Below, piece after piece: positions 51,986 to 63,300 of a DNA stretch of 64,000 bases (the stretch's first letter is position 1; each line of letters opens with the position of its first letter). The DNA comes from Mycobacteroides abscessus ATCC 19977. GTDB lineage: Bacteria; Actinomycetota; Actinomycetes; Mycobacteriales; Mycobacteriaceae. Under the pieces are notes generated by a model. The model saw only the letters and a program-made list of their open reading frames with translations. It ran no database searches and was not told where the DNA came from. Made by a program: the position numbers and the translations under genes. Location: positions 2,480,001 to 2,544,000 of the forward strand of contig NC_010397.1 of the NCBI RefSeq assembly GCF_000069185.1, written 5' to 3'.

Positions 51986-53323
51986 GTGACTACCACCAGT
52001 GCGGTACCTGCTGTCCATGCGGGCGGTCCGGCTGACGGGGACGCGCCCGCGGCGCGCACGGTCGCGCTGAGTTGCATGGTCGGCACCACGATCGAGTGGT
52101 ACGACTTCTATCTCTACGCGACGGCCGCGGCGTTGGTTCTCAAGCCGCTGTTCTTCCCGAGCGTCTCGCCGACGGCAGGCACGCTGGCCTCGTTTGCCAC
52201 CTATGCGGCCGGCTTCGGCGCGCGCCCGGTGGGAGCCGTGATCGCCGGGCACTTGGGGGACAGGGTGGGGCGCAAGGCCGTCCTTGTCGGTGCGTTGCTG
52301 CTCATGGGGGTGGCGACCGCGGTGATCGGTGCACTGCCCACCTACTCCGAGGCGGGTGTGCTGGCGCCTGCGGCGCTGGCGACGCTTCGGGTCCTGCAGG
52401 GGCTTGCCGCCGGGGCCGAGTGGGGCGGGGCCGCTCTGCTGGCGGTTGAACATGCCCCGGTGGGGCGGCGAGGTCTATTCGGTAGCTTCACGCAATTGGG
52501 GTCACCCGCGGGAATGCTCTTGGCCACCGGAGTGTTCGGGCTCACCCGAGCCCTGACCGGGCCGGAGGCATTTCTAGCCTTCGGCTGGCGGATCCCCTTT
52601 CTGAGCAGCATCGTCCTGGTGGTCGTTGGTTTGGCCATCCGGTTACGGTTGAGGGACTCGGTGGTGTTCCGGAAGGTACTGGAACGCGGGGAGGCGGCCC
52701 GGCTTCCGGTGGTGGAAGTGCTACGCACTCAATCTCGTAATGTGCTGCTTACCACGGGCTTACGCCTATCTCAGATCGCTCTGTTCGTGCTCCTGACGAC
52801 GTTCTCGCTGACCTACCTGCAAGGTTCTTTCGGCGGGGACAGCCAGATCGGGTTGACTGCCGTCCTGATCTCCTCGGCGTTGGGGATCTTGAGCACTCCG
52901 GTGTGGTCTGCGCTCTCGGACAGGGTGGGGCGCCGGCCTCTCTATCTGTTCGGATCGGCCGCTGGCCCACTGGCCCTGGGGCTCTTTTTTCTGGCCGCGG
53001 GCAGTGGCTCGAAGGTGCTGGTGGTGCTGTCAATTGTGTTCGGTATCAACGTTGTTCATGATGCCATGTACGGTCCACAGGCGGCCTGGTTCGCCGAGCT
53101 CTTCGATACCAGGGTGCGATACAGCGGCGCCTCGCTGGGTTATCAGATCGGCGCGGTACTGTCCGGTGGATTCGCTCCGTTGATCGCCGCGGCGCTGCTG
53201 GCGGCGAATCATGGCGATCCGCGGCTCATCGTGTGCTACTACCTGGCGCTATCGGTGCTCACCTTCGGCGCGGCATGTGTGGCACGCGAAACTTACCGGG
53301 ACCAGATAGGAGATTCCCTGTGA
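51986..53323 (+). CDS. MFS transporter, metabolite:H+ symporter (MHS) type
   Basis: 445 residues, 12 helices. SCMVGTTIEWYDFYLYATAAAL in helix 1 and GHLGDRVGRKAVLVGALLLMG in the loop 2-3 motif are marks of the MHS family (KgtP, ProP, ShiA). These import organic acids or zwitterions. GTG start. The stop overlaps the monooxygenase start (GTGA), so it probably imports that enzyme's substrate. Confidence 0.9.
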   Translation: MTTTSAVPAVHAGGPADGDAPAARTVALSCMVGTTIEWYDFYLYATAAALVLKPLFFPSVSPTAGTLASFATYAAGFGARPVGAVIAGHLGDRVGRKAVLVGALLLMGVATAVIGALPTYSEAGVLAPAALATLRVLQGLAAGAEWGGAALLAVEHAPVGRRGLFGSFTQLGSPAGMLLATGVFGLTRALTGPEAFLAFGWRIPFLSSIVLVVVGLAIRLRLRDSVVFRKVLERGEAARLPVVEVLRTQSRNVLLTTGLRLSQIALFVLLTTFSLTYLQGSFGGDSQIGLTAVLISSALGILSTPVWSALSDRVGRRPLYLFGSAAGPLALGLFFLAAGSGSKVLVVLSIVFGINVVHDAMYGPQAAWFAELFDTRVRYSGASLGYQIGAVLSGGFAPLIAAALLAANHGDPRLIVCYYLALSVLTFGAACVARETYRDQIGDSL

Positions 53324-54690
53324 GCAGGATCTATCTGAATGCCTTCGACATGGCATGTGTCGGGCATCAGTCGCCCGGCCTGTGGCGTCATCCGGATGAT
53401 CAGGGGCATCGCTACAAAAGCCTGGGCTACTGGACCGATCTCGCCAAGACCCTGGAGGCGGGCGGTTTCGACCTGCTGTTTCTTGCCGACGTGCTGGGTG
53501 CGTATGACGTCTACGGCGGTTCGCGAGACGCCGCAGTGGCCGACGCCGCCCAATTTCCGGTCAATGATCCGACCTTGGCGGTCTCGGCGATGGCCGCGGT
53601 CACCGAAACCCTCGGGTTCGGACTCACCCTGTCGCTCACTTACGAGCAGCCGTATGCGTTGGCGCGCCGTCTCACCACACTGGACCACCTCACCGAAGGG
53701 CGAGTGGCCTGGAATATCGTGACATCTTATTTGGACAGTGCGGCAAGGAATTTGGGGCTGGATGCGCAGATTCCACATGATCAGCGTTATGACATCGCCG
53801 AAGAGTACCTACAGGTCTGCTACAAGCTGTGGGAAGGCTCATGGGAGTCGGGCGCCGTGGTGCGAGACCGTGGGCGAGGGGTCTTCACCGATCCCGCGAA
53901 GGTTCACGACATAGAACACCATGGCCAGTACTTCACCGTTCCGGGACCATTTCTGTGCGAGCCGTCGGCACAGCGCACCCCGCTGCTCTTCCAGGCTGGT
54001 GCCTCGGCGCGCGGAGTTCGGTTTGCGGCCGCGCATGCGGAGGCTGTGTTCGTGTCGGGCCCCACACCCGATGTGGTGCGTGCACCGGTACGAGCGCTGC
54101 GAGCAGAAGCAGCCCGGTTGGGCCGTGACCCCCGGTCCGTCAAGGTGTTCACGATGGTGACGCCGATAGTCGCGGAATCTCACGACGCGGCGGTTGCCAA
54201 GCTGCTCGAGTATCGCCGATTCGTCAGCGCCGCTGGGGCATTGGCGCTGTTCGGCGGCTGGACGGGTGTTGATCTGGCTCGATTGGACCCGGACGAACCG
54301 TTGCGGCATGTCGAGACCGAGGCCAATCGTTCGGCACTGGCCTCATTCACCAACGATCCGAAACGGACCTGGACCACGCGGGAGCTGGCGCAGGAAATAG
54401 GGATAGGCGGGCGCGGGCCGGTTTTGGTCGGTACCGGGTCCAGCATCGCGGACGAACTGGAGCGTTGGTCCGACGAGGCCGATATCGACGGGTTCAATGT
54501 CGCGTATGTGACGACACCCGGGACCTTCGCCGATTTCGCACGCTTGGTGATACCGGAGCTACGCCGGCGTGGCCGGGTACCGCACCAGCGCGAAAGATGC
54601 ACTCTGCGTGAGCAACTCGGTGGGTCTGGCCCATATTTGGCCGACACCCATCCGGGCACCGGCTACCGCCGGGCGCCGCTACCCGGCTGA
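53320..54690 (+). CDS. NtaA/SnaA/DszA-family flavin-dependent monooxygenase
   Basis: 456 residues. The start GTG 53320 gives MSRIYLNAFDMACVGHQSPGLWRHP, a hallmark N-terminus. SLGYWTDLAKTLEAGGFDLLFLADVLG and GRVAWNIVTSYLDSAARNLG complete the NtaA/DszA pattern. Uses FMNH2 from a separate reductase to cleave C-N or C-S bonds in compounds such as nitrilotriacetate or sulfones. Coupled to the MFS importer. Confidence 0.93.
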   Translation: MSRIYLNAFDMACVGHQSPGLWRHPDDQGHRYKSLGYWTDLAKTLEAGGFDLLFLADVLGAYDVYGGSRDAAVADAAQFPVNDPTLAVSAMAAVTETLGFGLTLSLTYEQPYALARRLTTLDHLTEGRVAWNIVTSYLDSAARNLGLDAQIPHDQRYDIAEEYLQVCYKLWEGSWESGAVVRDRGRGVFTDPAKVHDIEHHGQYFTVPGPFLCEPSAQRTPLLFQAGASARGVRFAAAHAEAVFVSGPTPDVVRAPVRALRAEAARLGRDPRSVKVFTMVTPIVAESHDAAVAKLLEYRRFVSAAGALALFGGWTGVDLARLDPDEPLRHVETEANRSALASFTNDPKRTWTTRELAQEIGIGGRGPVLVGTGSSIADELERWSDEADIDGFNVAYVTTPGTFADFARLVIPELRRRGRVPHQRERCTLREQLGGSGPYLADTHPGTGYRRAPLPG

Positions 54691-55136: not shown

Positions 55137-55973
55137 TCAGGCACAGTCCGGCAGTGAGGTAACCATGTGCTCCCAGGCTCGGTGCAGCCGGGCCGTGATC
55201 GGCCCGGTCTGGGTGATGGAGGTGACGCATCGATGGCTGTGGTCGTACAGCTCCACGGAGGATGTCACACCCTGTGTGCCATGAGCCTGCGTCACCCAGC
55301 TTTCTGCGACGAAGACGGGGTCCACAGCGTACCGCGACGCGCCGAAGATAACCGCGAGGTGGGCGCCGGCCTGTTCGGCCATGGCCGCGTGGCCGCGATG
55401 CAACTGCACACAGCCGCCGCCTGGCACTGCGATGGTGAAAGGCATATCCACATCCACCAGATGAGCCAACAGATAGGGCACCACCCCGGAGTCGATCTTG
55501 CGGGCGCCGGTAAAGGGGAGCACCCGGTACCGCGCCGGCGTGAGCGCGTCGAGATGGATGAGCTGATCGCTGTCACGCCAGCTGATGTCCGGCCAATCGG
55601 TGACGGGGAAGGACTCCGGTGCGGGCGCCGGTGCGAGCTCGAGTGCGCCGACCGTCAGATGATTCGACAGCGGCGTGAGATAGGCGCGGTGCGTGCCGGT
55701 TTCGCCGACCATTGTCAGAGCACGGGGCGCCACGAATGCGTCGCGGACAAGCGCTGGGTTGAGCCGGAGCGCGATGTATTCGTCATCGCAGCTGAGTGCC
55801 TCACCGGGAAACGCGGGCTCGAGGTATTCGCCCGTGTGGCTCAATAAGGCGGCATCGTTCGCGGTGACGGCGACCACCGTGCCGAGCGCGGGAAGTGCTT
55901 CGGCAATGGCTTTGGGCCCCGCGACGATCCGTCGGGCAGGGCAGTGTTCGCAGCGTCGGCCGTCAGTACACAT
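55137..55973 (-). CDS. HemS/ChuX-like haem-utilisation protein (predicted)
   Basis: 278 residues. The N-terminus RCEHCPARR has a CxxC pair. ALPALGTVVAVTANDAALLSHTGEY resembles the first HemS/ChuX block. CVQLHRG and WVTQAHGTQGVTSSVELYDHSHRC resemble the HemS block where characterised proteins read W-x4-PT-DGxVTSLElfD. The chain is about the size of one-and-a-half HemS units and sequence similarity is partial, so the call is tentative. Its ATG overlaps the diflavin reductase stop by 11 nt, so the reductase could supply electrons for haem reduction or cleavage. Confidence 0.62.
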   Translation of the reverse strand: MCTDGRRCEHCPARRIVAGPKAIAEALPALGTVVAVTANDAALLSHTGEYLEPAFPGEALSCDDEYIALRLNPALVRDAFVAPRALTMVGETGTHRAYLTPLSNHLTVGALELAPAPAPESFPVTDWPDISWRDSDQLIHLDALTPARYRVLPFTGARKIDSGVVPYLLAHLVDVDMPFTIAVPGGGCVQLHRGHAAMAEQAGAHLAVIFGASRYAVDPVFVAESWVTQAHGTQGVTSSVELYDHSHRCVTSITQTGPITARLHRAWEHMVTSLPDCA

Positions 55974-57705
55974 CGCGGACGTACCGCTTTTCCCGCTTGA
56001 GGGTATTCACATATTCGGAGGCCTCATCGTCGCTGAATCCGCCGTGCTCGCCGACGATCTCGTGCAGCGCCTTGTCCACGTCCTTGGCCATGCGTGTCGC
56101 GTCACCGCAGACGTAGAAGTGGCCGCCGTCCTGCAGCCATGCGAACAGATCGCTGCCATGCTCGCGCATTCGGTTCTGCACATAGACCTTCTCGGCTTGA
56201 TCGCGGGAGAAGGCGAGATCGAGGCGATCCAGGAGGCCAGAAGAGTGCCAGGTGTCGATCTCGTTCTCGTAGATGTAGTCATGTGCCCGGTGCTGGTCGC
56301 CGAAGAACAGCCAGTTGTTGCCCCTCGCTCCCCGCTGCTCGCGTTCCTGCAGGAATGCGCGGAATGGGGCCACACCCGTGCCGGGGCCCACCATGATCAT
56401 CGGGGCTTCGTCGTCGCTGGGCACTCGGAATGATTTGTTGGGTTGCAGGAAGATCCGTGCGTTACTGCCGCGGTCTGCCAAGAACGTCGAGCACACGCCG
56501 CCGCGCTCACGGCCCAGGCTCTGATACCGGACGCTGGCCACGGTCAGGTGGATCCTATCCGGGTGAGCCAGCGCGCTCGATGAGATCGAGTAGGCGCGAT
56601 GCTGTAGGGGCTTGAGCAGTCCCATGAACTCTTCGAGGCTCAAAGCGTCGCCGCCGATACGCAGGATGTCGAGAATGTCCTTGCCATATAGCCAGGTATC
56701 CAGTACCTCTTTGACCCCGCCGCGCAGCGCGTGCGAGAACTCCTCGCTTTCGGCACGGCTTTCCACCTCGCTCAACAGGTCTCGCGACGGAGTACTGATC
56801 TCGTACCGATGGCGTAGCAGTTCTCCGAGCGGCTCCCCATCGACGAGTGTGCCGGTCGAGACCCGGAAGTGATCGGCGATCGCCTCGACCAGCGCCGGGT
56901 CGTTCTCCGGAATCACCGCGAGTGCGTCGCCCGCTTCGTAGGTGATCCCGCTGTCGGCGAGTGCGAACTCGTAGTGGCGAATCTCCTTGTCAGAGCCTGC
57001 CCGTGAGAGCAGTCGGTTGACCGGGACCTCGGCGGGGAACGGGTTCTTGCGGGTCCACCCGGAACGCGCGACGGTGCTCGGAGGGGGAGTGCCCGGACTG
57101 CCGCTGGCGCCGGCCAGAGTGACCAGGCTTGCCACTGCGCCCTGAACCCACTCCGCGGCCTGGGCCTCGTAATCGACGTCGCAGTCGGTGCGCCCGACCA
57201 CGCGGCTCGCGCCCAGTTGCTCAAGACGGGTATCGATCAGCTTGCCGGCCTGGCAGAACCCGTCGTAGCTGGTGTCACCCAGGGCCAGCACGCCGTAGGA
57301 CACTCCCTCGAGTCGTGGAGCGACCGCCGAAGACAGTGCATCCCAGAATAATTCGGCATTGTCGGGCATCTCGCCCTCGCCGTAGGTGGAGGTGATGATC
57401 AGGACGTATCGCAGGCCCGCGAACTCGTCGAGGGCGATTTCGTCGAGGCCGCTGACGGTCACGTCGAAACCTTGTGCTTTGGCGGCCGCCGCGGCGTCGC
57501 CCGCCACGATTTCCGCGTTGCCCGTCTGGGTGCCGTACAGGATGCGCAGTGGTGGCCGGGGAGCAGCCAGATCCGCGGTGGCCGCCGGCGGTTGCGCCGC
57601 CAGGTTCATGGCGAGGCGGGAGTGCAACCCGGCGAGGAAGCCCGAAAGCCATGCTCTCTGGTCCTCGTTGAAGGGTGCGTCTTCGGGAATGTAGGCGATC
57701 TTCAT
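55963..57705 (-). CDS. CysJ-like NADPH diflavin reductase
   Basis: 580 residues from ATG 57705. The N-terminus MKIAYIPEDAPFNEDQRAWLSGFLAG is shared by reductases linked to sulfite or nitrate reduction. FMN domain from about 70 (YGTQTGNAEIVAGDAAAA). FAD site RAYSISSSAL and GGVCSTFLADRG. NADPH site MVGPGTGVAPFRAFLQE. C-terminus KRYVRDVY identical to that of the nitrate reductase fusion. It starts 7 nt after glutamate synthase and overlaps the HemS-like gene. No sulfite reductase haemoprotein is nearby, so its acceptor is uncertain. Confidence 0.9.
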   Translation of the reverse strand: MKIAYIPEDAPFNEDQRAWLSGFLAGLHSRLAMNLAAQPPAATADLAAPRPPLRILYGTQTGNAEIVAGDAAAAAKAQGFDVTVSGLDEIALDEFAGLRYVLIITSTYGEGEMPDNAELFWDALSSAVAPRLEGVSYGVLALGDTSYDGFCQAGKLIDTRLEQLGASRVVGRTDCDVDYEAQAAEWVQGAVASLVTLAGASGSPGTPPPSTVARSGWTRKNPFPAEVPVNRLLSRAGSDKEIRHYEFALADSGITYEAGDALAVIPENDPALVEAIADHFRVSTGTLVDGEPLGELLRHRYEISTPSRDLLSEVESRAESEEFSHALRGGVKEVLDTWLYGKDILDILRIGGDALSLEEFMGLLKPLQHRAYSISSSALAHPDRIHLTVASVRYQSLGRERGGVCSTFLADRGSNARIFLQPNKSFRVPSDDEAPMIMVGPGTGVAPFRAFLQEREQRGARGNNWLFFGDQHRAHDYIYENEIDTWHSSGLLDRLDLAFSRDQAEKVYVQNRMREHGSDLFAWLQDGGHFYVCGDATRMAKDVDKALHEIVGEHGGFSDDEASEYVNTLKREKRYVRDVY

Positions 57706-57712
57706 GGCTTCT

Positions 57713-60700
57713 TCACGTGGTCTGGAGGGACGGTCCGGAGAGGGCAACGGCAGGCAGTGCGCGATGCGCGAACAGCTCTTCGAAAGAGGGCAGCCGGCCG
57801 ATCTTGTCAATGTTTTTTGCGCTCTGGTGCAGGATCCAGCCGTAGGTGCCCGGGCTGTCCATCGATAGGACGTTGCGCTGGCTCAGTGCGTCCTTGTAAT
57901 CGGTGAGCCGCTTGTCCGCGATGAGGACCGCAAGGTCCTCGTCGCTGTATCCGTCAATCGCCTCACGTGCGTATTTCTGCAGCTTCTGGATCAAGAAGAA
58001 GTCCTCGGTGAGGACAAGGTTGCGCACCGCCTTGCCGATCCGCGGGTCGGTCACGTCCGTGACGTTGGGCATCCGGGACAGGGCGAGCTGCTGCGCCATA
58101 TTGAGCACCGTGTAGGTGTTGAGCAGCGCGTACATGCCCTCAGTGTCGGTATCTCCGTACGCCGGAACCGTGCCGCCGACGACGTCGCGCCGGTCACGGT
58201 AGGACAGCTTGAATTTGTGCACCTGGTATCCCGCCAGGGCGGCGGTGAGTTCGTCCAGTAGTTCCTTGCGTGTTTTGCCCTGCAGGATGGCGTCAGAGTC
58301 TTGATACTGCAGCAGTGCCCGCGACATGGTGTACACCATGTGATCTCTAGCGGACTGCCAATCATCAAGCAGTGCTTGTCCTTTGGTGGATCCAGTGGCT
58401 GCGACATGCCACTGCAGCAGGATGTGCGCGGCGGCCTCATGGAACGGCGCGTCGGTGATGGGCAGCACCAACACCGAATCATGGCTGACCTTGGATGGCA
58501 GCTGGCCGTGGGGGTCGTACTGATAGAGGAAGCCGCCACTCATGCCGTTGGCCACTCCCTTGCCAAAGTCACCGATGTTGAGCACGGCACCGTTGGTCAT
58601 GTACTCGCACAGGAATTCGCCGGTGCCCTCGACCACGGCTGTCGCGCCAGAGTTCCGGACCGCGAAGCGGTCCCCGGCCTGGCCCTGGACGAACAGCCGC
58701 CCGCCAGAGGCGCCGAAGAGCGCGAAGTTGCCGATGAGGACGTTGCCCCCGGGCTCACTGGAACCGCCACCGGGTGAGCGCACCGTGATGGTGCCGCCGC
58801 ACGCGCTCTTGCCCACCCCGTCGTTGCAGGTGCCCGTGTGCGTGAGCACCATCCCGTCGTTGCAGAAGACGCCGTAGCTCTGGCCCGCCGAGCCCGTGGT
58901 GGTGATGGCGATGCTCTCGGGCAGTAAGTAGCGGCGGCCACGCTCGTCGGTGGCCACCGCGGGCCCCTCGATGTTCTGGTAGTTGAGCGATCGTTCGATA
59001 TCGATCGCCAATTGCCCGCCCACGCTCTTGTTCTGATTGGTCAGAGTCACCGGCTTCAGCACCGCGCCGCGCGCGTCGAACTGCGCGGCGAACGCATCGT
59101 CCACCGAGTAGTCCTTCTCCATGTACACAGGATTTTCGACGACGAATTCCTCTGCGACAGCGAGCATGCGGCGCAGGTCGAGGGTGCCGATGCTGGACGG
59201 GTGGTCAAGGAGATGCAGCAGGTCGCTGCGGCCACGTGCCTCGCGCAATGTGCGCATTCCCAGTGCCGCCAGAATCTCCCGCACTTCGTGCGCGATGTTC
59301 AGCAGGTACTGGGCCAGCGCGCGCGGGTCCCCCTCGAACACCTCGGCGTTGGTTGTCAGCCCCGCCGGGCACTTGATGTTGCAGTTCTTAGCCATCACGC
59401 ACTTGAGCATCATCAGTGCGGTGGTCCCGAACTCGAAACTGTCCGCTCCCAGCAGCGCCGACTTGACCACGTCGCTGGCCGTCTGGTGCGCGCCGGAGCA
59501 ACGCAACACCACCTTCTGTCGTATTCCATTGGCGCAGAGCGCTTGATGCACTTCGGCGACACCGATTTCGGCCGACCGGCCCGCATACTTGAGGCTCGTA
59601 ACGGCCGCCGCGCCCGTGCCGCCGGTATTGCCGGCCACGTTGATGACATCGGCGCCTGCCTTGGCGACACCTACCGCAATGGTTCCGATGCCCTCCGAGG
59701 ACACCAATTTGACGATCACCCGGACTCGGGCCGCCTTGCAATCGTGGATCAGTTGGGCGAGGTCCTCGATCGAGTATGTGTCGTGGTGGGGCGGGGGCGA
59801 GACGAGCTCGACACCCGGTGTTCCACCACGGGCGGCCGCGATTTGGACGGTCACCTTCGGAGCCGGAAGCTGGCCGCCTTCACCGGGTTTAGCGCCCTGG
59901 CCGATCTTGATCTCGAGTTCCTGGAGCATAGGGTCGGCAAGGTAGCCGGCCCACACCCCGAAACGGCCGGAGGCGAACTGCTTGATGCGGGAGCCGCGGA
60001 TAGTGCCGTATCGGCTGATGTGCTCACCGCCCTCACCGCAGTTGGAGAGGCCGCCAACCAGATTGGTTCCATGCGCCACGGCCTCGTGTGCCGGGGCCAC
60101 CAGGGCGCCGTGGCTCATGGCTCCCGATGTCAGTGTCGGCGTGATCTCGCTGGCCGGTTGCACCGAGGACAGCGGGATCGATTCCGGCGCTGTCCTGATC
60201 TGCGCCAGGTAGTCCGCTGCCTGGCCGGTCGCGGTGATCCTGAGCTCATCGCCCACGATCTCGTGGTGGGTGATTTCTCGCCCGAATCGGGTGCGCAGCG
60301 ATGACGCGAGGGCCGCCAGCCGTTCGGGGGAGTGTGCGAGCCGCAGCACGAAAACGTCATCCGTCTGCTGGCACGACAGCCCGCGCACCTGGAAGTCGTT
60401 ATTGCCGAGCCGTGCGAATTGTCCCATCTCTCTGCGGAATTCGTCGGCGGTACGCACAAAGTTCACGTCTGCGGGTAGCGCCAGCACATCGCGCAGCGCG
60501 GCGGGGCGCCTGGTGCGCTCCGAATTCATCGCCCGCACGAAATTCCGGTACCCGGGGGTGATGTCGAAGCTGTCGATCGCGCGCGTGGGCAGCTCATCGA
60601 AGCTGTTGTTGCGGTAGGCCTCGTCGTCGAGTCCGAAAGCGCCCTCGAGCTGATGCAGAGGCAGTAGGCGCAAGTATGTCGGGTCGGCCATGTCGGGGTT

Positions 60701-63139
60701 CTCGGGTCTGGCCTCGTCCCCAAAGGAGATGGATTCCTCGGTCATATCCACGAATCCGCGCACTGCCGTGGTGCCGTACGAGTGACCGGCGCCTTCGGCA
60801 CGCTCCTTGAAGAGCCCGAGTAAAGGGACATCCTTTTCGCCTGTCACGGCCAGTGCCCGTGCATGCCAGTCGGCGACGGCCGCGGCCAGGGTGGAGAAAC
60901 CGACACCGGCCACCGGTGACACCACATTGGGGAAATACTTGCGCAATACCGGGTCCGAGGTGTCCAGGTAGTTGGGTTCGAAGAACTCCCCGCCGATGTA
61001 GCTCTCGACGGTGCACAGCCCGACCCGGCCCATCGTCTTCATCAGGGATTTCTCAGCTGCCTTGGCGAAGTGCTTGAAGGCGTTGACCGCGTCGTCTACG
61101 TCGGGACCGTACTTCTCCTCGGCCCGCATCTGCACCGCGAGTGGATATACCGCGGAGGCCCCGAAGCCCAATACCGCGGCCACATGGTGCGAGGAACACA
61201 GCTGGCCGCTCTCGGCGATCAGGGAGACGCGTAATCGCAGGCCTTCCTCGATGAGGCGCTGGTTGATCGCCGAGATGACGATGATGAGGGGCATGGCCGC
61301 GCGTTCACTGGAGACGTGGCGGTCGGAAATCACTGCGATGCCACCGGTCTCGCGTGCAAACTCCTCGACCGCGTCACACAGGTCGTCAATCGCCCGCACG
61401 ATTCTTTCGGCGTTGGACACCGCATCGGTGAGGTCTACGCGGTAGCGCATCCCGAAGCGCCGGACGGGGGTGCGCCCCTGTTCGCGGATTTTGAGCATGT
61501 CGAGATGCGTGAGGATGGGGGAGGGCACCACGATCTGCGGTGCGGGCTGCGCGCCGCTGTTGGGTTTGGCGCCGAGCGCCACGCGCAGCGTCATGCCGTC
61601 GGCCTCGCGGATGCTGTCCAGCGGCGGATTGGTCACCTGAGCGAATCGCTGCGAGAAGTACTTGGCAACGCCGCCTTCCTGATTCGACAGCGCGTTGATG
61701 GCCGCGCCGTACCCCATGGCAGAGATCTTCTCCTGGCCGGTAGCCAACATCGGATCCATCAGGAACTTGAAGCTCTCCTGGTTGAGCGAGTAGGCCACAT
61801 AGCGCTGGTGGCGGTCGAGGTCACCGTCGTACCGCGCGGGGGAACCCTGGCCAGCGGGCGGCACGTGCGGCAGGTCGGCGATATTGACTCGGGCCTGCGC
61901 CAACATCGCCGGATAATCATGCCGCGCGGCAAGCATTTCCAGGGCCTCGACGGTGTTGTACGAACGGCCCTCGGAATGGTCGTAGTAACGCATTCCGCCG
62001 GCCTCGATGCGGCCGCGCTCAAGCACCGAATCCGGTTCGAAGTAGATCTGTCCGGCCTCGGACATCACGCCCAGGTATTCGGCGGTCTCGACGGTGCGCA
62101 GTGGTCTGAGCCCCAGCCGGTCCAGTCGTGCGCCGATGATGTTGCCGTCACCGAAGATCAGTGCGGCCGGGCCGTCGTTCTTCTCCTCGTAGAGGCTGAA
62201 ATATTCGAGCATGGCCGTCACCCGCGGGGATAGCGTGGTGTCGTTCTCCCAGGCGGGCGGCATCATCGCGACGACGGCAGTGACCAGGTCCAGGTCATCC
62301 TCCAGCACCCGGCTCTGCAGGGTCTGATCGAGCCTGCAGCTATCCGATTGTCCGACTGGGCGGATGATCGCCCGATTACGGGCCCGGGCAATCGCGTTTT
62401 CGGACAACCGGTTTTTCTTGTCGGTGTTGAGTTCGCCGTTGTGTGCCATGAGTCGGAAAGGCTGGGCCATGGTGGCATTCGGTGCGGTGTTCGTCGAGAA
62501 CCGGGTATGGAAGAACATCGAATGCACTTCCATCCGAGGATCGGATAGGTCGCTGAAGTAGGGCACCACTTCATTTGAGTTGAGACGTCCTTTGAGGACC
62601 TGGGTGCGTGTGCTCAGCGAAAGCGGGTAGAGCCCAAGAAGTTCCGGGCGGGTATACGCGACGGACTCGATCGCCATGAGCGCCTCATGAGTCTTGCGTT
62701 CAGAATCGGAGCGAAACACCCACTGCCGGATCGGCAGCTGATACTTGATGGCCGCCGGACGGATCGCGTCGTTGTTCACCGGCACATCGCGGCTGAGCAG
62801 GATCGTGAATCCCTGTGCGCGTAGCGCCTGCTCGATGACTTGCTCGGCCTCAGCGTGTGATGCCGGGTCGTTGGGCAGGAAGAAGTTGCCCACACCGAAT
62901 TGCCCGTGACGGAGGTCAGAGACCCCCGTCAGCTCGGAGAAGAAGCGCAGCGAGAGATCGAGGTTGACGCCGGCGCCGTCTCCGACGCCTTCAGAGGACA
63001 TTCCCCCGCGATGAGGTACGGCGCAGAGCGCTTCGTGGAGCTTGCGGACGACGTCATGAGTCTGGACGCCATCCTTGCGGGTCAGGAATCCGACGCCGCA
63101 GCTACTTTTCTCCTGCTCTTGGTCATACAGCCCGTTCAG
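57713..63139 (-). CDS. Large glutamate synthase (GltB-type), CTG start
   Basis: 1808 residues. The class II amidotransferase needs an N-terminal Cys. The frame contains SSCGVGF, but the first ATG (63001) lies 32 codons past that Cys. No ATG, GTG or TTG occurs between the in-frame TAA at 63281-63283 and the Cys. CTG at 63139 has GAGGAG 6 nt upstream and gives LNGLYDQEQEKSSCGVGF with Cys14, a normal short propeptide. Later: HRGGMSSEGVGDGAG, FMN domain GGLSNCGEGGEHISRYG, and Fe-S motif KCVMAKNCNIKCP (C-x5-C-x3-C; canonical is C-x5-C-x4-C). About 280 residues longer than usual GltB at the C-terminus. No gltD nearby; the coupled diflavin reductase may supply electrons. Confidence 0.93.
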   Translation of the reverse strand: MNGLYDQEQEKSSCGVGFLTRKDGVQTHDVVRKLHEALCAVPHRGGMSSEGVGDGAGVNLDLSLRFFSELTGVSDLRHGQFGVGNFFLPNDPASHAEAEQVIEQALRAQGFTILLSRDVPVNNDAIRPAAIKYQLPIRQWVFRSDSERKTHEALMAIESVAYTRPELLGLYPLSLSTRTQVLKGRLNSNEVVPYFSDLSDPRMEVHSMFFHTRFSTNTAPNATMAQPFRLMAHNGELNTDKKNRLSENAIARARNRAIIRPVGQSDSCRLDQTLQSRVLEDDLDLVTAVVAMMPPAWENDTTLSPRVTAMLEYFSLYEEKNDGPAALIFGDGNIIGARLDRLGLRPLRTVETAEYLGVMSEAGQIYFEPDSVLERGRIEAGGMRYYDHSEGRSYNTVEALEMLAARHDYPAMLAQARVNIADLPHVPPAGQGSPARYDGDLDRHQRYVAYSLNQESFKFLMDPMLATGQEKISAMGYGAAINALSNQEGGVAKYFSQRFAQVTNPPLDSIREADGMTLRVALGAKPNSGAQPAPQIVVPSPILTHLDMLKIREQGRTPVRRFGMRYRVDLTDAVSNAERIVRAIDDLCDAVEEFARETGGIAVISDRHVSSERAAMPLIIVISAINQRLIEEGLRLRVSLIAESGQLCSSHHVAAVLGFGASAVYPLAVQMRAEEKYGPDVDDAVNAFKHFAKAAEKSLMKTMGRVGLCTVESYIGGEFFEPNYLDTSDPVLRKYFPNVVSPVAGVGFSTLAAAVADWHARALAVTGEKDVPLLGLFKERAEGAGHSYGTTAVRGFVDMTEESISFGDEARPENPDMADPTYLRLLPLHQLEGAFGLDDEAYRNNSFDELPTRAIDSFDITPGYRNFVRAMNSERTRRPAALRDVLALPADVNFVRTADEFRREMGQFARLGNNDFQVRGLSCQQTDDVFVLRLAHSPERLAALASSLRTRFGREITHHEIVGDELRITATGQAADYLAQIRTAPESIPLSSVQPASEITPTLTSGAMSHGALVAPAHEAVAHGTNLVGGLSNCGEGGEHISRYGTIRGSRIKQFASGRFGVWAGYLADPMLQELEIKIGQGAKPGEGGQLPAPKVTVQIAAARGGTPGVELVSPPPHHDTYSIEDLAQLIHDCKAARVRVIVKLVSSEGIGTIAVGVAKAGADVINVAGNTGGTGAAAVTSLKYAGRSAEIGVAEVHQALCANGIRQKVVLRCSGAHQTASDVVKSALLGADSFEFGTTALMMLKCVMAKNCNIKCPAGLTTNAEVFEGDPRALAQYLLNIAHEVREILAALGMRTLREARGRSDLLHLLDHPSSIGTLDLRRMLAVAEEFVVENPVYMEKDYSVDDAFAAQFDARGAVLKPVTLTNQNKSVGGQLAIDIERSLNYQNIEGPAVATDERGRRYLLPESIAITTTGSAGQSYGVFCNDGMVLTHTGTCNDGVGKSACGGTITVRSPGGGSSEPGGNVLIGNFALFGASGGRLFVQGQAGDRFAVRNSGATAVVEGTGEFLCEYMTNGAVLNIGDFGKGVANGMSGGFLYQYDPHGQLPSKVSHDSVLVLPITDAPFHEAAAHILLQWHVAATGSTKGQALLDDWQSARDHMVYTMSRALLQYQDSDAILQGKTRKELLDELTAALAGYQVHKFKLSYRDRRDVVGGTVPAYGDTDTEGMYALLNTYTVLNMAQQLALSRMPNVTDVTDPRIGKAVRNLVLTEDFFLIQKLQKYAREAIDGYSDEDLAVLIADKRLTDYKDALSQRNVLSMDSPGTYGWILHQSAKNIDKIGRLPSFEELFAHRALPAVALSGPSLQTT

Positions 63140-63280
63140 ACGATTCTCCTCACCCAGCGCCGCGCACGGCGTATCCAGCGTGTGACGTTGGGTTTCTCGT
63201 CCGTTGAGCGAACCCGCCCTGACCAGCTTTCGGCGTGGTCTCGACCCGGCAGGCGCCGGTAACCCGGTCTCCGGGGCCAG

Positions 63281-63300
63281 TTAAACCAAGCCTAGCCTAA
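63281..63300 (-). promoter_or_regulatory. IdeR-like iron box upstream of the glutamate synthase operon
   Basis: On the minus strand TTAGGCTAGGCTTGGTTTAA matches about 13 of 19 positions of the mycobacterial IdeR consensus, with a nearly perfect first half (TTAGG-TAGGCT). It lies 142-161 nt before the CTG start, a reasonable place for a promoter operator. If real, the GltB-diflavin-HemS-like operon responds to iron. Confidence 0.55.

Follow-up and report, generated by a model that had tools for sequence, protein, structure and literature searches.

A glutamate-synthase-like gene of Mycobacteroides abscessus with a conserved candidate CTG initiation codon

Introduction

Glutamate synthases of the GltB type are N-terminal nucleophile (Ntn) amidotransferases, for which removal of a propeptide is known, and GltD carries two 4Fe-4S clusters. 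Initiation codons other than ATG, GTG and TTG are also known in bacteria, as in Escherichia coli infC, which starts at ATT and is autoregulated through IF3. In mycobacteria, CTG is thought to start proteins almost never. Here, we describe a glutamate-synthase-like gene on the minus strand of a 64,000-nucleotide stretch of the Mycobacteroides abscessus ATCC 19977 genome (contig NC_010397.1, positions 2,480,001 to 2,544,000; hereafter the window, by whose numbering all positions are given), the translation of which very probably begins at a CTG codon at position 63139. A conserved CTG start is unexpected, and the gene lends itself naturally to asking whether mycobacteria can initiate at CUG and what enables them to do so.

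The gene and its reading frame

The gene and the elements at its 5' end are as follows:

57713 to 63139, minus strand: glutamate-synthase-like large subunit, 1808 residues counted from the CTG (Pfam and PDB relatives)
63137 to 63139, minus strand: CTG at codon -13, counted from the catalytic Cys; proposed start of translation (NTG in 36 of 37 orthologous loci)
63146 to 63151, minus strand: Shine-Dalgarno (SD) sequence GAGGAG, 6 nucleotides upstream of the CTG (sequence; AGGAG in relatives; duplex energies)
63098 to 63100, minus strand: codon of the catalytic N-terminal Cys (TGC, in SSCGVGF; aligned with 7mfm_G)
63128 to 63130, minus strand: CTG of codon -10, Leu of the GLYD propeptide motif and rival start (codon column in 37 loci)
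62999 to 63001, minus strand: first canonical ATG, a start at which deletes the Cys (used by database proteins such as P0007)
63281 to 63283, minus strand: in-frame TAA, upstream bound of the frame (sequence)

The predicted 1808-codon product is a glutamate-synthase-like large subunit, as judged from four Pfam domains, GATase_2 (residues 14-409), Glu_syn_central, Glu_synthase and GXGXG, which occur in this order and all exceed their cut-offs. The NCBIfam equivalog model of the large subunit (NF008730) scores 1032.6 bits, narrowly below its cut-off of 1047, and the protein is therefore considered a divergent relative of the GltB-type large subunit. Its SSCGVGF segment aligns with the N-terminal CGIG of 7mfm_G, the large chain of a solved glutamate synthase.

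A preliminary description of this DNA had proposed that the catalytic Cys can be reached only from a CTG start, and its account of the frame is confirmed in every coordinate checked. The TAA at 63283-63281 lies in frame with the Cys codon at 63100-63098 on the minus strand, and none of the 60 codons from one to the other is ATG, GTG or TTG; ATT, ATC and ATA are equally absent from these 60 codons, the translation of which contains no Ile. The GAGGAG at 63151-63146 lies 6 nucleotides before CTG 63139, a normal SD spacing and one of the features sought in CTG-initiating genes. The CTG itself stands at codon -13, which would give a propeptide of 13 residues with the initiator Met included, and ATG 63001 is indeed the first canonical start, initiation at which would remove SSCGVGF.

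A start-codon-like column at codon -13

Orthologous loci (numbered here with the prefix L) were collected in three scans. The genus scan matched 30 of 396 genomes at E 1e-100 or better, all 30 of which were fetched; the family scan matched 71 of 401 genomes at the same threshold, 30 of which were fetched; and a scan of genome contigs was kept to its best 80 loci. The start-column comparison comprises 75 loci, made up of 30 from the genus and 30 from the family (four shared) together with 19 of the best 80 contig-scan loci, and these reduce to 59 distinct loci. The other 61 of the best 80, mostly from rhizobia and rhodococci, have 75% identity or less and lie outside the comparison. A DNA-level search for further relatives matched six of 119, four with the known gene and two with short matches elsewhere, and added no new locus. 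The column count uses the 37 of the 59 distinct loci that have at least 82% identity to the window protein; the remaining 22 (L147-L168, at most 76% identity), whose N-terminus is different, were left out of it and have TTG or GTG mostly at codons -17 to -19.

Codon -13 of the 37 loci is CTG in 15, TTG in 13, GTG in seven, ATG in one and CGC in one; the orthologue alignment that the preliminary description had proposed as a check is thus positive. Since the first base of this codon takes all four letters whilst TG is constant (NTG in 36 of the 37 loci), the column resembles that of a start codon, and chance occurrence is therefore unlikely. Interchange with ATG, GTG and TTG among orthologues is a further feature sought in genes that initiate at CTG. 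In L138 (genome G175), the sole near orthologue without NTG at this position, the codon is CGC and the start is shifted by six codons in the upstream direction, to an ATG.

An AGGAG is found, counted by eye, within the 18 nucleotides before codon -13 in 31 of the 36 NTG leaders, those of L130, L131, L136, L137 and L144 being the ones from which it is missing. Nine CTG loci out of 15, that of the window among them (L113, L115, L116, L117, L118, L120, L121, L145 and L035), lack any ATG, GTG or TTG from the last in-frame stop up to the Cys. The tightest case is L145, from another genus, in which a stop at codon -18 leaves the CTGs of codons -13 and -10 as the only near-cognates. The occurrence of CTG in 15 distinct loci of separate genomes led us to reject a sequencing or assembly error at CTG 63139.

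A start at CTG 63130 (codon -10), three codons further downstream, has some backing in the databases, where the proteins P0002, P0004, P0005 and P0006 begin MYDQ, and in the occurrence of TTG at this codon in L114, L126 and L142. However, codon -10 is CTG in 25 loci, CTT in five, CTC in four and TTG in three, so that nine of the 37 loci, including the Mycobacteroides-type L115 with CTC, carry a codon that is not among the starts of translation table 11, and initiation here would extend the SD spacing to 15 nucleotides. Codon -10 encodes Leu and codon -11 Gly in all 37 loci, with free third bases. This invariant Gly before codon -10 is part of a GLY family motif that is also found in 7mfm_G and in the second GltB of this genome (L001), which places the start at or before codon -12. 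On this codon comparison, CTG 63130 behaves like an ordinary Leu codon, and we regard initiation there as highly unlikely.

Selection upstream and downstream of the CTG

In the 10 Mycobacteroides-type copies, the 45 codons that follow CTG 63139 and precede ATG 63001 have a ratio of non-synonymous to synonymous substitution rates (dN/dS) of 0.05, with third positions variable at 30 of the 45; by this measure, purifying selection acts at the protein level between CTG 63139 and ATG 63001. Upstream of the CTG, only six of 81 leader columns vary in nine copies, with no codon periodicity (3, 1 and 2 by codon position); L114 was left out of this count on account of a one-base indel and would raise it to 48 of 81. 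These two patterns together argue that the region encoding the Cys is translated and that the region before the CTG bears no sign of translation.

The same values bear on two further rival starts. Initiation at ATG 63001 would yield a protein devoid of the Cys, either an ammonia-dependent or an amidotransferase-dead enzyme; ATG 63001 comes first among the canonical starts of the frame, and entries such as P0007 carry this annotation. Such a start is difficult to reconcile with the dN/dS of 0.05 over the preceding 45 codons or with the conservation of the active site among 121 proteins (120 listed matches and the window's own), of which 112 have CGVGF or CGVGL near the N-terminus. Eight of the remaining nine entries begin downstream and the other, P0025, reads CGVGV. 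The other amidotransferase motifs are likewise preserved (HNGE and SDS in all 121 proteins, HRGG in 116 of 121), making a start at ATG 63001 extremely improbable.

Alternatively, initiation might occur further upstream, at a non-NTG codon or in an upstream frame joined by frameshifting or readthrough, leaving the CTG internal. In Mycobacteroides-type copies, no stop interrupts the 43 to 66 codons that precede the Cys, five loci (L119, L124, L127, L128 and L129) have an in-frame ATG, GTG or TTG upstream of the CTG, and the database entries P0016, P0018 and P0022 of relatives start upstream. Despite this, the stretch before the CTG lacks codon periodicity, the TTG or GTG at codon -18 of L124, L127, L128 and L129 abuts or overlaps the SD, and a stop at codons -16 to -18 closes the frame in L145 and in the GTG, TTG or ATG loci L130, L131, L132, L038 and L139-L141; we consider an upstream start exceedingly unlikely. 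Coupling to a mini open reading frame seen by eye in the window, GTG AGG AGA ATC GTC TGA, the stop of which overlaps the CTG, was set aside, since this frame is, again by eye, interrupted in L127 and L129.

Recurrence and retention of the CTG

CTG is common to all 10 Mycobacteroides-type copies seen and occurs in five other loci. A tree of 41 proteins, in which 11 of the 38 inner branches are drawn open, requires at least four changes in CTG, whether gains or losses, two of them forced by well-supported branches. Recurrence in one gene is unusual because switches to CUG are very rare in prokaryotes: in the available part of a survey of prokaryotic start-codon evolution, triplets of close relatives show two switches to CUG from AUG in 61,358, one from GUG in 5,080 and one from UUG in 2,468, and genes with CUG were too few for part of the analysis (PMC5622118).

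Retention of CTG over TTG in nine copies is no better than chance when set against the Leu CTG codons of the same gene. Of these 76 codons, 36 changed their first base in at least one of the nine copies and 40 did not, with 12 remaining CTG in all nine. About half therefore keep their C by chance, the retention seen in Mycobacteroides is not unusual, and selection to keep CTG over TTG is not supported by this comparison.

Probable initiation at CTG 63139

The best reading of these data, and the one that the preliminary description had advanced, is initiation at CTG 63139. We infer this start from comparison, and hold it to be very probable that the glutamate-synthase-like gene is translated from this codon, which keeps the active-site Cys of the enzyme.

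Several observations weigh against it. In six of the 15 CTG loci, the frame offers a further ATG, GTG or TTG ahead of the Cys: TTG at codon -10 in L114; ATG at -43 in L119; ATG at -27 and TTG at -18 in L124; GTG at -25 and TTG at -18 in L127 and L128; and GTG at both -25 and -18 in L129. An SD that compensates for a weak codon was looked for and rejected, since mean duplex energies are -9.8 kcal/mol in CTG loci (n=15), -9.7 in TTG loci (n=13), -12.0 in GTG loci (n=7) and -12.7 in the ATG locus (n=1); the SD of CTG loci is no stronger than the others, and nothing points to compensation. Among the ten nearest database entries, four begin at codon -10. Our literature search, conducted largely without subscription journals or supplements, found neither a paper about the start of this gene nor any N-terminal peptide or ribosome-profiling data for it. 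According to the available text of a start-codon selection in M. smegmatis behind a consensus SD, CTG showed no enrichment and accounted for 0.03% of the selected leadered starts, the figures for ATG, GTG, TTG, ATT and ATC being 20.5%, 22.2%, 28.7%, 9.8% and 0.2%, respectively (Shell et al. 2015, PMC4633059). Similarly, the portion of a M. tuberculosis Ribo-RET study that was available reports enrichment of ATG, GTG and TTG, and not of CTG (PMC9094748). By contrast, in the part consulted of an N-terminomics study of M. smegmatis, N-terminal peptides support a CTG start for one other gene (PMC9597629). A conserved and recurrent CTG start is, on the codon comparisons, very likely and is surprising given the reporter data.

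The ten nearest database proteins (P0002-P0011) give this one enzyme three N-termini: codon -13 in three entries (P0003, P0008 and P0009), codon -10 in four and, in the other three, a downstream start that leaves out the Cys. The expectation that gene callers would begin at 63001 and delete the Cys is therefore only partly borne out. These N-termini are taken from protein records of relatives, the DNA of the P0003, P0008 and P0009 records not having been seen, and public annotation probably already assumes a CTG start implicitly. Start-codon rules nonetheless continue to supply databases with one N-terminus that lacks the active site.

Were translation to begin at CTG 63139, the ribosome would be positioned by the GAGGAG 6 nucleotides upstream, and the initiator tRNA would pair with CUG chiefly at its second and third positions. 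Such pairing would place fMet first, so that the protein would start fMet-Asn-Gly-Leu-Tyr-Asp and carry a 13-residue propeptide before Cys1. By analogy with GltB, this propeptide, initiator Met included, would presumably be removed; the Cys would be present if the CTG is the start, and presumably exposed by that removal. Decoding of the CTG as Met, propeptide removal and a low efficiency of initiation are all inferred here. In the available part of a cryo-electron microscopy study of E. coli complexes, a variant initiator tRNA is seen paired in frame with CUG, the first base pair being weak (PMC11497404).

Operon context and enzyme type

Two further genes follow the glutamate-synthase-like gene:

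55963 to 57705, minus strand: CysJ-type diflavin reductase, second operon gene (domain searches; relatives)
55137 to 55973, minus strand: HemS/ChuX-type haem protein, third operon gene (domain search; relatives)

Together, these form a conserved operon (55137-63139, minus strand) encoding a GltB-like protein, a CysJ-type diflavin reductase and a HemS/ChuX-like protein. The diflavin reductase gene is directly downstream in all 16 fetched relatives, with a second, more distant match further downstream in L183 and L190. A HemS/ChuX-like gene is found downstream near full length in nine of the 16 (one at 28% identity), as short matches in two and not at all in five. A hemophore-related gene lies upstream. 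Beyond the operon, on the opposite strand (51986-54690, plus), are genes for an MFS symporter and an NtaA/DmoA-type flavin mononucleotide-dependent monooxygenase. In genome G056 (L012 and L142), a frameshift or an assembly error near residue 370 divides the glutamate-synthase-like gene between two frames.

The iron-sulphur (Fe-S) site of the protein has the spacing C-x5-C-x3-C (motif CVMAKNCNIKCPAG, within 57716-63139, minus strand) in 121 of 121 proteins, the 120 listed matches and the window's own. The GltB loci of seven other genomes (L013-L019) have C-x5-C-x4-C, one residue longer, and the window protein does not share this spacing of the GltB 3Fe-4S ligands. Possibly, the enzyme is an iron-sparing glutamate synthase for iron limitation, one that would receive its electrons from an Fe-S-free flavoprotein replacing GltD.

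The leader and a possible link to iron

Two elements precede the SD:

63196 to 63208, minus strand: motif CTCAACGGACGAG, conserved in the leader downstream of the IdeR-like box and upstream of the SD (relaxed-pattern match in 35 of 37 leaders)
63282 to 63300, minus strand: IdeR/DtxR-like box TTAGGCTAGGCTTGGTTTA (13 of 19 positions match the consensus)

The best match to the IdeR consensus is 13 of 19 in the window and ranges from 12 to 16 of 19 across the 37 leaders; it reaches at least 13 of 19 in 31 of the 37, as against seven of 740 shuffles. The putative box ahead of the operon therefore suggests iron control of this glutamate synthase, and the operon is probably iron-controlled through it.

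The leader (63140-63260, minus strand) is far more conserved than the synonymous sites of the gene. Its motif, CTCAACG(N)ACGAG, was found in 35 of the 37 leaders by a relaxed pattern devised after the leaders had been viewed, L143 and L146 lacking it; four other exact matches in the genome all lie within long open frames. No known RNA family matched the leader above its family cut-off, the one sub-threshold match, to a tetrahydrofolate riboswitch (E 0.83), lying inside the neighbouring hemophore-related gene. Seven folds of the leader were about as stable as shuffles (z -1.12 to 0.95), RNAalifold gave three pairs only, and a scan for sigma-70 promoters and terminators found nothing. Pairing of the flanks of the motif, in 25 distinct sequences, beats base shuffles (5/500) but not swapped partners (538/2000). 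The motif may be an RNA hairpin or an inverted-repeat DNA operator.

The CTG might be retained for its weakness as a start, which would set or regulate the level of an iron-controlled enzyme together with the conserved leader. The recurrence of CTG (at least four changes by parsimony, two of them forced) in the face of the rare switches to CUG in the available part of the survey cited above (PMC5622118), a leader with six of 81 columns variable in nine copies and the IdeR-like box ahead of it all accord with this proposal. However, the retention of C in Mycobacteroides-type copies is ordinary, 40 of the 76 Leu CTG codons having also kept their first base, the leader folds are about as stable as shuffles and the flanks of the motif pair no better than swapped partners; we judge it rather unlikely. 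Its fuller form is likewise unlikely: that the CTG is a deliberately weak start which, with the leader (the CTCAACG-ACGAG motif plus the stretch preceding the SD), would tie translation of an iron-sparing glutamate synthase to iron or haem. A factor or a rearrangement of the leader would in that case license the CUG initiation that fails in a plain mycobacterial reporter.

Comparison with known systems

In common with the GltB large chain (PDB 7mfm, 6s6s and 1ea0), the window protein has the four Pfam domains, an N-terminal Cys (in CGVGF) after a short propeptide with GLY, and the HNGE and SDS motifs. In contrast, it is about 290 residues longer than the chains of 7mfm and 6s6s (1515-1520 residues), and it differs from GltB in its C-x5-C-x3-C site in place of C-x5-C-x4-C, in its CysJ-type diflavin reductase neighbour and in its putative CTG start. 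The closest parallel for this start is the M. smegmatis polyprenyl synthetase (WP_011729667.1), likewise a mycobacterial CTG start missed by annotation; as the available part of that study has it, the polyprenyl synthetase case is based on N-terminal peptides from one species, whereas that of the glutamate synthase is based on conservation across species (PMC9597629). The gene also resembles those with near-cognate bacterial starts, such as E. coli infC, in combining a start other than ATG, GTG or TTG with an SD and, as proposed here, decoding by the initiator tRNA. Autoregulation through IF3, by contrast, is a feature of infC.

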